A DNA stretch of 64,000 nt from Methylobacterium sp. Leaf91 (GTDB lineage: Bacteria > Pseudomonadota > Alphaproteobacteria > Rhizobiales > Beijerinckiaceae). This document shows, in pieces, positions 10,575-48,725 of this stretch. The translations under genes and the position numbers were made by a program. A model generated the notes under the pieces. That model had not been told where the DNA came from, ran no database searches, and was given only the letters and a program-made list of their open reading frames with translations. How positions within the stretch are numbered: the first letter of the stretch is position 1; each line of letters begins with the position of its first letter. The stretch is from the NCBI RefSeq assembly GCF_001422815.1, contig NZ_LMMP01000001.1, positions 495,919-559,918 on the forward strand. Direction: 5' to 3'.

Positions 10575-11213
10575 TCAGAAGGCAAGGCAGCCATGGCAGC
10601 GCAACCGGTCAAGCAATCCGGTCAGCGGCAGGCCGAGGATCGTGGCATGGGCGCCTTCGATTTCCGCGAACAGATGGATGCCGAGGCCTTCCAGCTGGTA
10701 TCCCCCCACCGTGCCGGTGACGCGGTCATGGCCGGCAATCGACAGATAGGTGTCGATGGCGGCCGCGCTCAGGTCCCGCATGGTCAGACGGGCCTCGTCG
10801 TGAATCACGTCCTGCTCGCGCCCCGGTACGATGAGTGCGGCGGCGGAATGCAGGGAATGCGTCCTGTTGGATAGCCGGCTCAGCTGATGTTTCGCCGCGT
10901 CGAGGGAGGCGGATTTGTGGAACACCTCCCCGTCGCAGGCGAGAACCTGATCCGCGGCCAGGACGATCCTGTCGCGGGCCTTTTCCGCGACCGCCCGTGC
11001 CTTGGCCAGGGCCAGCCGGCGGGCGAGATCGGCGGGGGCGAGGGGGCCTGAATCGGCCTCGATGCCTCGCTCGTCGACATTCGGGATCACGACCTCCACG
11101 TCGAGGCCGGCGGCTTCGAGGAGATGCCTGCGCGTCGGCGAGCCGGAGGCAAGAACCAATGGACGTTCGGGAAGCCAGAGATGGGTCATGACGGAGCTCG
11201 CTTCGCGTTTCAC
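10575..11213 (-). CDS. maf: Maf-family nucleotide pyrophosphatase
   Basis: A 212-residue protein with the Maf signature [19 protein letters not shown], then the VDER loop, [24 protein letters not shown] (catalytic AADQ) and [16 protein letters not shown]. Maf proteins hydrolyse non-canonical or modified nucleoside triphosphates to monophosphates. Here TVGGYQ replaces the DKAGAY-type motif, as in the Maf-like branch common in alphaproteobacteria. Two starts are possible: the GTG at 11213, which overlaps the ppsR stop as GTGA, or the ATG at 11189, which is closer to the family start (204 residues). Neither has a clear ribosome site. Confidence 0.92.
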
Positions 11214-12040
11214 GCCACGATGAACTTGAGCCGGTGCTCGCGGTGGAGATCGAGGATCGCGGCGGCGGTCTCCTCGATGGACCGCCTCGTGACGTCGATG
11301 GTCGGCCAGCGATGTCGGCTGCAGAGTTTGCGGCAGGCGGCGATCTCGTCGGCGACGGCGTCGCGATCGACATAGAGAGAGGTGTCGTCCGCCTTCAGGC
11401 TCAGCAGACGGTTCTGACGAATCTGCACGATCCGCTCAGGAGACGCGAGAAGGCCGACCACGAGGGGCTTGCGGGCGTTCTCGAGATTGGGCGGCACCGG
11501 CATGCCGGGCACGAGCGGGAAATTCGCGGTTTTCAGCCCACGATTGGCCAGATAGATCGCCGTCGGGGTCTTCGAGGTGCGGCTGACGCCCACGAGGATC
11601 ACGTCGGACTCGTCGATGTCGAAGGGCAGGTTGCCGTCGTCATGCGCGAGGGTGAAGTTCATCGCGTCGATGCGCTTGAAATATTCGGCGTTCAGCATGT
11701 GCTGCGCTCCCGGCCGGGCCGTCGTCTCTGCGCCGAGATAGGATTGGAGCAGGGCGTGGACCGGCTGGAGCACGGAGAGGCAGGGCGAGCCCGTCTCGCG
11801 ACAGGCCGCTTCCAGCCGCTCGGTGAGGTCGTGCCCGACGAGCGTGTAGAGGACGAGGCCCGGCGCCGCCTCGATCTCGGAGATCACCCGTTCGAGCTGG
11901 GCCGAGGATCGCACCAGGGGATAGACATGCTCGATGGCCGAGACGCCTTCATACTGGGCGGCGGCGGCGCGACCCACATTGATGAGGGTCTCACCGGTGG
12001 AATCCGACACGAGATGGAGATGGAAGTAGCTGCGACTCAT
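11210..12040 (-). CDS. ppsR: pyruvate, phosphate dikinase regulatory protein (DUF299)
   Basis: A 276-residue bifunctional kinase/pyrophosphorylase of the DUF299 family, which uses ADP to phosphorylate and phosphate to dephosphorylate a threonine on PPDK or PEP synthetase. It opens with [20 protein letters not shown], typical of the family. The P-loop-like [18 protein letters not shown] and the C-terminal [15 protein letters not shown] are clear. It is the first gene leaving the putative origin leftwards, and maf overlaps its stop. Whether its target here is PPDK or PpsA cannot be told from the window. Confidence 0.94.
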
Positions 12041-12319
12041 CGGAAATTCCCATCCCAGGCCGGCGGACGGGCTCGAGGGATCTCCGGGTTATCCACCACA
12101 CCTGAAGGCCGGAGTCGACAGGTGGGGATAAAGCACCCCTGTCCGGGCCGGGGGCGGAACCTTCCCCCGCGTTGTCGACTCTCACGTCAACATGCAGACC
12201 AACGACCCTCGTCCCGATCCCGGTTTGGGAGATTCAGGGAGGGTTCGGGCACGGGAGACCCATCACGGCGCGCAAGTCGCTGATTAGACTTCCCGTTCTC
12301 GAAAGTTAGCGCGAACCCG

Positions 12320-12335
12320 TTAAAGCCCCGTTAAC
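12320..12335. promoter_or_regulatory. CtrA binding site within oriC
   Basis: The sequence reads TTAA, seven bases, TTAAC, an exact match to the CtrA consensus TTAA-N7-TTAAC. TTAA is rare in this window; I noticed only about three other instances. In Caulobacter CtrA binds the origin and blocks initiation. This site is 22 bp from the nearest DnaA box and 56 bp from the AT-rich block. Confidence 0.7.
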
Positions 12336-12384
12336 GGCGGTGCGGCGGGGATGGGGTGTGGACAAGTTCGCGGTCCCGTCATCC

Positions 12385-12442
12385 CCCGTCTAAAAGAAAA
12401 AACAGAGTCCTAGAATCTCTCTTTTCTTATTAGATAGACGGG
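12385..12442. other. AT-rich block flanked by inverted repeat, candidate DNA unwinding element
   Basis: Perfect 8-bp arms CCCGTCTA (12385-12392) and TAGACGGG (12435-12442) enclose purine-run AAAAGAAAAAACAGAG on one side and CTCTCTTTTCTTATTAGA on the other, so the whole block is roughly palindromic. Its A/T content is far above the surroundings. It lies 20 bp from the DnaA box at 12357, which is the usual placement of an unwinding element. Confidence 0.55.
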
Positions 12443-12600
12443 ACGGGGACAGGGATTTTCGGCCACCCCCGGAGGCTCTCGCAGGGAGCAGGGCTTTCGG
12501 AAGTGGGCATGGGAGAAGCGGCGACGTCCTGCGGTAAAACAACGTCCCTCGGCAAAAGATCTTCCCGAGAAGGGGCAGGGACGTCATAGCTCTGTTCCAA

Positions 12601-12617
12601 GGGGGAGGGTCTCCCCC
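12601..12617 (+). promoter_or_regulatory. hairpin holding the hemE ribosome-binding purines
   Basis: GGGGGAG (12601-12607) pairs perfectly with CTCCCCC (12611-12617) across a 3-base loop, ending 6 bases before the first hemE ATG. The only Shine-Dalgarno-like purine run before that ATG is inside the stem. Translational masking is an inference. Confidence 0.4.
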
Positions 12618-12623
12618 ATCAAG

Positions 12624-13715
12624 ATGGACCGGGCGGATACGCGCATGACTCGACGTGACGGCACCGATCGTGCGCTGCTTCAGGTTCTCGACGGCAAACC
12701 GTCCCGGATCCCTCCCGCCTGGATGATGCGGCAGGCCGGACGCTATCTGCCGGAATATCGCGAGGTCCGGGCCAGGGCCGGTTCGTTCCTCGACCTCTGT
12801 TACAATCCGGACTTCGCCACCGAAGTGACCCTGCAGCCGATCCGGCGGTTCGGCTTCGACGCGGCGATTCTATTCTCCGACATCCTCGTCGTGCCGGACG
12901 CCCTCGGGCAGAATGTCCGCTTCGTCGAAGGGGAAGGCCCGCGTCTCGACCCGGTCCATGGCCGGGACGAGTTCGCTCGCCTGAAACAGGCCGATGATCC
13001 GAGCATCTTCCAGCATCTGGAACCGGTCTTCGAGACCGTCCGGCGCTTGCGCTCTGAGTTGCCGGCCGAGACGACGCTTCTCGGGTTCTGCGGCGGTCCC
13101 TGGACGGTGGCGAGCTACATGATCGGCGGACGTGGCACGCCCGACCTCGCTCCCGCCCGCGCGCTCGCCGATACCGAGACCGCCCTGGTGGAAGCGCTCA
13201 TCGACCGCCTGGTCTCGGTGCAGATCGAGTACCTGTCGCGCCAGCTCGAAGCCGGCGCCGATGCGGTCCAGATCTTCGAATCCCATGCGGGTTCGCTGCC
13301 CCGGGCTCCCGGGGCGACGGCGGACGCCCTAGAACATTGGAGCTTCGCCCCCATCGCCCGCATCGTCGACGGGGTCAGGGCCCGCGTGCCGGGCGCGAAG
13401 ATCATCGTCTTCGCCCGGGGCTCGGGCCTGGAAGGCCATGCCCGCGTGATGGGCGAGACCGGTGCGGACGCCGTCGGTGTCGATTGGAGCGTCGATCTGA
13501 AGGCCCTGCGCGGTGCCGTGGCGCCGCGCACCGTGACCCAGGGCAACATCCACCCCGAAACGCTGATCGAGGGCGGTGAGGCCCTCGACGCGGCCGTGGA
13601 CGGGGTGCTCGAGGCGACGGAGGGACTGCCGCACATCTTCAACCTCGGCCACGGCATCACCCCGCAGACGCCGATCGCCCATGTGGAGCGGATGCTCGCC
13701 AGATTGCGGCGCTGA
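12624..13715 (+). CDS. hemE: uroporphyrinogen decarboxylase
   Basis: A 363-residue cytosolic enzyme converting uroporphyrinogen III to coproporphyrinogen III in haem and cobalamin precursor synthesis. The N-terminal signature [20 protein letters not shown] is intact, as are [29 protein letters not shown], and the C-terminal [12 protein letters not shown] and [12 protein letters not shown]. Two starts are possible, ATG at 12624 or 12645 (MTRRDGTDR), and both leave the signature complete. It is the first gene to the right of the putative origin and is followed 10 bp later by hemJ. Confidence 0.97.
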
Positions 13716-26410: not shown

Positions 26411-26431
26411 CTATCCACAGGCTGTGGATAA
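26411..26431. promoter_or_regulatory. DnaA-box palindrome
   Basis: The sequence CTATCCACAGGCTGTGGATAA contains a 19-bp perfect palindrome around one central base (26412-26430). On the minus strand, 26423-26431 is a perfect 9-of-9 DnaA box (TTATCCACA); on the plus strand, 26411-26419 is an 8-of-9 box. The one-base centre rules out a hairpin, so it is a double-strand protein site. It lies 9 bp after plsC and 41 bp before a promoter. Confidence 0.6.
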
Positions 26432-48185: not shown

Positions 48186-48725
48186 GGCATCTCACCGCTG
48201 TCGCGAACGACGTGGAAGGTGGGCACGACCGCATCAGAGCGCCCGGCCGAAGGAAAACGTCGAAGGGAAACGTCAGGGTCGCGTGTTCGGTTGCCCGCGT
48301 CGAACCGGGTCGTTCGCCAAAGGACCTCGCCCCGGCAAGAGACCTAGCATACCGCCGCGCCGACCGGTCGGGTCAGCCCTCGTTCCCCGCGCTATGCCCG
48401 TTGTTCCCAACGGTTGGCGGGCATTCTCCGCCGAAGTTGCAGGCACGCTTTCTCCCAGGGAGTATCCTGTCCCCGGGGCGTTGCCGCCGATCTCCTGAAG
48501 CCGATCTCCTGGGCATGACCTCTTGCCATCCTCGCGGGAGCGCCCACCTCTTGAGAGCTTGACGGGTCCGGGCCCCTCTGGCGGCCGAGGCGTCGGCCGC
48601 GATGTCGGACTCCTTCTCTGCCTTTGCGCTGACGCGGCGCGAACGCACCGGGGGGTTCTGACACACGTGGTTGTATCGATGATCTTTTGCGGCATCTCGG
48701 GATGCTCGTTTTCGGAGGTGGCCTC
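48186..48725. other. 540-bp gene-free interval
   Basis: No convincing gene is seen on either strand. A 12-bp direct repeat GCCGATCTCCTG occurs at 48486-48497 and 48500-48511. The region presumably holds the divergent promoters of the exported protein and the lipid kinase. Just before 48726 lies GGAGGTGGCCTC, the ribosome site of the kinase. Confidence 0.4.

Follow-up and report, generated by a model that had tools for sequence, protein, structure and literature searches.

Where chromosome replication begins in Methylobacterium is the question raised by the divergent gap between ppsR and hemE in Methylobacterium sp. Leaf91. This gap lies within a window of 64,000 nucleotides (the whole stretch of DNA that was analyzed; C1:495919-559918 of a 52-contig, 5.26-Mb draft in which contig C1 holds 611,322 bases). 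The original prediction had called it a good origin candidate, and the comparative support gathered here is strong: an anatomy followed through 29 loci, a gene neighborhood of the Caulobacter Cori type, and the top rank in a scan for origin signals. We consider it likely that this Methylobacterium has its chromosomal oriC, the replication origin, in the gap; because KOPS-like polarity words reverse near parS, the claim falls short of proof. The parts of the locus, in window coordinates, were as follows.

11210 to 12040, minus strand: ppsR (Kinase-PPPase), by profile match
12041 to 12623, no strand: divergent ppsR/hemE gap, the proposed oriC; 583 bp, 60.9% GC
12089 to 12097, plus strand: DnaA box 1, TTATCCACC, one mismatch to TTATCCACA; TCCnC core kept in at least 28/29 per column
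12111 to 12118, plus strand: GGAGTCGA, near-invariant (at least 28/29 per column), with a GANTC site (12112)
12123 to 12131, minus strand: DnaA box 2, TTATCCCCA, one mismatch to TTATCCACA; the most widely kept box
12226 to 12240, plus strand: TGGGAGAnTCnGGGA, near-invariant in the 29-gap alignment, with a GANTC site (12231)
12320 to 12334, plus strand: CtrA-type site TTAAAGCCCCGTTAA, an exact TTAAN7TTAA by motif match; exact in 29/29 loci
12347 to 12353, plus strand: GGGGAnG, near-invariant in the 29-gap alignment; presumably W-box-like
12357 to 12365, minus strand: DnaA box 3, TTGTCCACA, one mismatch to TTATCCACA; core TGTGGA kept in at least 28/29 per column
12391 to 12436, no strand: AT-rich block, the proposed unwinding element, with GANTC at 12405 and 12413; conserved core 12387-12423
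12624 to 13715, plus strand: hemE, by profile match

The ppsR product scored above the NCBIfam subfamily cut-off (PPDK/PEP-synthase regulators) and below the narrower PpsR equivalog cut-off; we take the gene to be the COG1806/DUF299 member. Profiles bore out the predicted divergence of the flanking genes, with Kinase-PPPase, Maf, shikimate dehydrogenase, CoaE and an RNase_T exonuclease (dnaQ-like) leading leftward and HemE and HemJ rightward. The gap was also non-coding, as had been claimed: no open reading frame of at least 90 amino acids lay wholly inside it, and the one extending into it (11234-12283, plus strand) was the antisense shadow of ppsR. The three 8-of-9 DnaA boxes on which the prediction drew (12089, 12123, 12357) are real and exceed chance, the window holding 8 boxes at one mismatch versus 2.29 expected, a number reached in 0 of 100 shuffles; three of these 8 fall within 277 bp, all in the gap. 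Exact TTATCCACA occurs at three places in the Leaf91 genome, none of them in the gap. The AT-rich block, rightly singled out as exceptional, stands beside box 3 and is the top 46-mer for A+T in the window (34/46), the sole one of the 64 kb at such a value, against a window GC content of 67.7%. To these parts can be added the exact CtrA-type site, which is the window's single match to TTAAN7TTAA even allowing one mismatch, and five GANTC sites (12112, 12177, 12231, 12405 and 12413). Genome-wide, TTAAN7TTAA was found at 37 places in Leaf91 versus 9 for the reversed pattern; of 3171 overlapping windows as long as the gap, 33 had at least five GANTC sites, some of these windows overlapping the gap itself.

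This anatomy was shared across the genus. HemE was matched in 60 of 61 genomes, 37 of them of the same genus including Leaf91; 30 loci were examined, comprising 29 from the genus and one (L024) from another family, and the eight same-genus genomes without an examined locus include G009, which is covered by stretch L167. A divergent ppsR motif upstream of hemE was present in 29/29 same-genus loci and absent in L024. All 29 gaps carried an exact TTAAN7TTAA (shuffle mean, 0.0), and together they held 37 one-mismatch DnaA boxes versus 1.2 expected. In 24 of the 29 a DnaA box (at most one mismatch) stood 197 to 199 bp before the CtrA-type site, box 2 of Leaf91 doing so at 197 bp; five gaps (L015, L017, L019, L020 and L022) had no DnaA box at up to one mismatch. 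Box 3 was seen at one mismatch only in the four closest of the 29 loci (L002-L005), its core TGTGGA being kept. Columns conserved in at least 28 of the 29 aligned gaps comprised GGAGTCGA (12111-12118), TGGGAGAnTCnGGGA (12226-12240), both TTAA halves, GGGGAnG (12347-12353), TGTGGA (12357-12362) and two blocks in the AT-rich stretch (12387-12408 and 12412-12423). Four of the five GANTC sites, the DnaA box cores and the AT-rich block fall in near-invariant blocks. The 29 gaps held 11.2 GANTC sites per kb, about seven times the 1.66 per kb of the sampled same-genus stretches (2.7 Mb). An IHF site was rejected as a conserved part: the one-mismatch match at 12273 in Leaf91 had counterparts at up to one mismatch in 2/29 loci and at up to two in 6/29.

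A combined score for boxes, GANTC and CtrA-type sites was computed over 53,139 windows of 400 bp from eight same-genus genomes (the 2.7 Mb of sampled stretches, 311 kb of these in Leaf91). The six best places were all the ppsR/hemE gap, one per genome sampled there (G009, G007, Leaf91, G023, G018 and G004, the last without a box), a ranking that is not blind, since the motifs were taken from the literature after the gap had been seen. Elsewhere in the window, at 26411-26431, two back-to-back inverted DnaA boxes, CTATCCACA and an exact TTATCCACA that occurs nowhere else in the window, precede a 168-amino-acid open reading frame without a Pfam match, and the pair recurs in G007. It was rejected as an origin, having no CtrA-type site and lying beyond the 2-lnL bounds placed on the polarity reversal described below. 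Another Leaf91 contig carries an exact TTAAN7TTAA 1.4 kb from an exact TTATCCACA (C12:265796-267163), perhaps a regulatory region, perhaps the origin of a separate replicon.

The origin of Caulobacter offers the closest comparison. The available part of one report (PMC1914354) has Cori flanked by hemE and the COG1806/DUF299 gene and lists in it sites for DnaA, CtrA and IHF and an AT-rich region of 40 bp; the original prediction, too, had set the Caulobacter origin next to hemE. The same part describes how DnaA, CtrA, IHF and AT-rich signals served to predict origins in other organisms. Judged from that part, the Methylobacterium gap resembles Cori of Caulobacter crescentus in its hemE/ppsR position, DnaA boxes, CtrA sites and AT-rich block and differs in having one CtrA-type site in Leaf91 where Cori has five. 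Four features of a Cori-type oriC were found: a gap between divergent hemE and COG1806/ppsR, a DnaA-box cluster, a predicted CtrA site and an AT-rich element next to a box. A fifth, the IHF site of Cori, appears not to be conserved in Methylobacterium by the motif matches given above. Four GANTC sites of the Methylobacterium gap are conserved. The single CtrA-type site, the five gaps without a DnaA box and the poorly kept IHF-like match speak against the origin reading. The oriC of Sinorhizobium meliloti, which supports DnaA-dependent autonomous replication, presumably adjoins hemE in the same order. Predicted origins of Wolbachia and Rickettsia likewise occupy a hemE-side gap with DnaA, CtrA and IHF sites, yet in Wolbachia hemE and COG1806, together in Methylobacterium, are over 600 kb apart (available part of PMC1914354).

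From the conserved anatomy and gene neighborhood, which the alignments document, binding, unwinding and firing may be envisaged as follows. DnaA would bind boxes 1 and 2 and the weak box 3 and would open the AT-rich block beside box 3, where the helicase would be loaded. Firing would be blocked when CtrA-P occupies the single TTAAN7TTAA site, and CcrM, by methylating the conserved GANTC sites, would contribute to its timing; both CtrA and CcrM are presumed to be present in Leaf91.

Strand polarity, which usually reverses at a bidirectional oriC as a correlate and not by definition, appears not to reverse at the ppsR/hemE gap. GC skew, the check first proposed for this locus, was uninformative in Methylobacterium: no usable replicative signal was seen in plain GC skew (20-kb stretches) or in third-codon-position skew by gene strand, the latter following gene strand. 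Polarity was read from KOPS-like words, GGGNAGGG, by a maximum-likelihood change-point with one fixed bias (0.72) over sampled stretches, a test that was chosen post hoc and applied to eight related genomes. The original prediction had held that a skew minimum elsewhere on the chromosome would refute an origin here; GC skew itself is mute on this point, and the KOPS-like words, reversing near parS some 57 kb away, formally amount to that refuting result.

In Caulobacter parS lies close to the origin, whereas in the eight Methylobacterium genomes it was 18 to 427 kb from hemE. In six of the eight the words reversed near parS and not hemE, parS there being 57 to 427 kb from hemE. The best reversal point in Leaf91 was C1:563,156 (2-lnL interval, 534,742-569,760), with lnL 8.5 lower at hemE and 0.9 lower at parS; the interval starts at window position ~38,824, and the best point falls at about the window's right end, ~55 kb from the gap. 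The exact parS of Leaf91 (C1:565697) lies inside the rsmG reading frame, 5.8 kb right of the window. The lnL deficits at hemE and parS, respectively, were 10.4 and 0.9 in G007, 30.2 and 0.0 in G035, 14.2 and 1.9 in G004, 13.2 and 2.8 in G017, and 15.1 and 0.0 in G023, and they were too close to decide in G018 (1.9 and 1.9) and G009 (4.7 and 3.8). The reversal was sharp in G035 (between 1,578,652 and 1,582,005; parS at 1,581,019) and in G023 (between 4,359,497 and 4,362,252; one-mismatch parS at 4,361,915). Polarity reversal thus fits parS closely, though not exactly in every genome. Of the 213 words sampled in the hemE-parS intervals of all eight genomes, 61 favored an origin at hemE and 152 opposed it (binomial p 4e-10, uncorrected for relatedness or for the post hoc choice of test).

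The nearest closed relative, G007 (HemE 98% identical; chromosome of 4.79 Mb), was divided into two polarity domains both by GGGNAGGG (40 stretches) and by the 10-mer GGGGGAGGGC (whole chromosome). Its origin-side GGGGGAGGGC reversal fell at 1,228,759-1,246,222, with parS at 1,240,181 and hemE at 1,151,260, and 77 of 83 GGGGGAGGGC words fit this reversal plus one at 3.87-4.0 Mb, a map that is chromosome-wide and a clean pattern that is partly selection, the 10-mer having been selected from a set tried on stretches of these genomes. The six exceptions (C1 positions 435,917; 1,187,699; 1,761,558; 2,899,187; 3,836,586; and 4,112,305) possibly mark local inversions. A dif-like 24-mer had no match at up to three mismatches in any of 11 genomes, and the terminus is therefore known solely from the polarity reversal. 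Other markers of polarity were set aside. A 4-mer classifier with KOPS masked was correct for 60, 57 and 52 of 95 labelled stretches at three settings (leave-one-genome-out), and its interval votes at the first setting were mixed (G017, 7 to 2 for hemE; Leaf91, 0 to 3 against); the coding-strand share was too variable for gene orientation to serve; and 16S was found in just 1 of 11 genomes by family and pattern search, which made rRNA orientation unusable.

The main alternative, for which the polarity data speak, is that the working origin is at or near the parS/parAB/rsmG/mnmG/mnmE/rho cluster (C1 ~560-568 kb, right of the window) and the ppsR/hemE gap is a former origin or has another role. 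Reversal near parS in Leaf91, G007, G035, G004, G017 and G023 favors it, as does the suggestion, in the available part of an alphaproteobacterial survey (PMC8116508), that parAB be used as an anchor for ori curation. Against it, the sampled stretches around parS held no exact TTAAN7TTAA in any of the eight genomes, and within 12 kb of parS the top-scoring 400-bp windows reached 2 to 6, almost all from GANTC; this sampling was contiguous in Leaf91, G018, G023 and G009, with breaks of 2 to 10 kb in the remaining four (G007, 1.230-1.240 Mb; G035, 1.570-1.575 Mb; G004, 4.310-4.312 Mb; G017, 1.915-1.920 and 1.940-1.950 Mb). Moreover, the CtrA-type, GANTC and AT-rich anatomy of the ppsR/hemE gap was kept where parS is 216 to 427 kb off (L017, L022 and L023), unlike a relic, an argument weakened by the lack of a one-mismatch DnaA box in L017 and L022. 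We regard an origin near parS as unlikely and favor a replication start at ppsR/hemE together with a polarity determined by parS. Around the cluster itself, locus L045 (416-12218) shows rho and mnmE tail to tail with parB-parA-rsmG-mnmG-holA-lptE-leuS, where rho, mnmE, parB, rsmG and mnmG were called by profile, parA scored below its curated cut-off, and holA, lptE and leuS were read from translations. Relative to G007, Leaf91 has an inversion of C1 554.2-605.6 kb that carries parS and parAB and runs from window position ~58,300 past the right end. A two-mismatch parS-like site was also seen at C1:494420, 1.5 kb left of the window.

With the origin placed at ppsR/hemE, the origin would have drifted from parS in Methylobacterium and the KOPS-like polarity would follow parS. 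Since third-position GC skew follows gene strand and no replichore term was seen, the KOPS-like words seem not to be a side effect of replication-linked base composition and are therefore possibly selected; such selection may be for FtsK guidance, in which case the words could follow segregation. The evidence leaves evenly balanced the further proposal that oriC (ppsR/hemE) and the centromere (parS) came apart by the distances given above and that the G-rich words mark the segregation axis (parS to dif) and not the replication axis. In P. aeruginosa PAO1-UW, according to the available part of PMC6199493, the GC-skew switch, which is mirrored by KOPS, is less than 15 kb away from dif and 682 kb away from the site where replication terminates. 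There polarity is uncoupled from replication at the terminus end, whereas Methylobacterium may show uncoupling at the origin end, at parS; if true, the reversal at parS would be the origin-end counterpart of the switch at dif. When parS is displaced in P. aeruginosa, it separates before any other locus and is functional inside a ~650-kb zone around oriC (available part of PMC5098823). Most hemE-parS separations would fit such a zone if it reached ~325 kb to either side, and the 427 kb of G035 would exceed it. The range of distances among the eight genomes offers a natural experiment on whether replication or segregation sets KOPS-type polarity, a question that is hard to pose in chromosomes whose oriC and parS are neighbors.

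Promoters, too, are targets of DnaA, CtrA and GANTC-reading regulators, and the gap, as a divergent promoter region, might do no more than regulate ppsR and hemE jointly, with DnaA, CtrA and CcrM employed as cell-cycle regulators. Loci from a second collection bear on this reading. The best 80 of 587 confirmed HemE loci were headed by five Methylobacterium records, followed by other Hyphomicrobiales; ppsR was divergent and within 1.5 kb of hemE in 47 of these 80, a motif-based count giving 45, and not so in 30, and 3 had too short an upstream sequence. DnaA boxes were present in the 500 bp upstream of hemE in 37/47 junction loci versus 6/30 other hemE loci, an exact CtrA-type site upstream of hemE in 18/47 versus 2/30, and mean GANTC counts per 500 bp were 4.66 versus 1.60, with a mostly coding control (42 loci) giving 0.05 boxes and 0.73 GANTC per 500 bp. 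All three signals being higher with an adjacent ppsR, the origin-type signals belong to the ppsR/hemE junction and not to hemE alone, in a comparison that is not a clean control because the two groups differ in lineage, the hemE-alone group being rich in Bradyrhizobium and Rhodobacterales. That hemE loci without an adjacent ppsR mostly lack the signals, in a phylogenetically lopsided group, and that an AT-rich block next to a near-invariant box core is consistent with an unwinding element, make a shared promoter region very improbable as the whole explanation.

An origin upstream of dnaA, where the available part of PMC4161386 places the putative origin of M. oryzae CBMB20, is hardly credible here: in G007, dnaA lies deep within a single polarity domain, its distance being 1.15 Mb to hemE and 1.24 Mb to parS. 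In the Leaf91 draft dnaA is on another contig (C4), and in 6 of 11 genomes no more than 2.2 kb separates it from the start of a contig, which is a deposit convention. Among the matches listed in a literature search (titles and starts of abstracts; few subscription journals), none maps a Methylobacterium origin at hemE and none describes polarity reversing at parS. The position of a Methylobacterium origin may already have been predicted in print. Database origin positions have been used for a set including M. radiotolerans and M. extorquens (available part of PMC5378121). The ppsR/hemE gap gives Methylobacterium a testable origin anatomy, set against the published dnaA-upstream assignment in one species. 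Farther along the window, positions 48560-48617 matched the terC RNA family (RF03067) at 65.2 bits.
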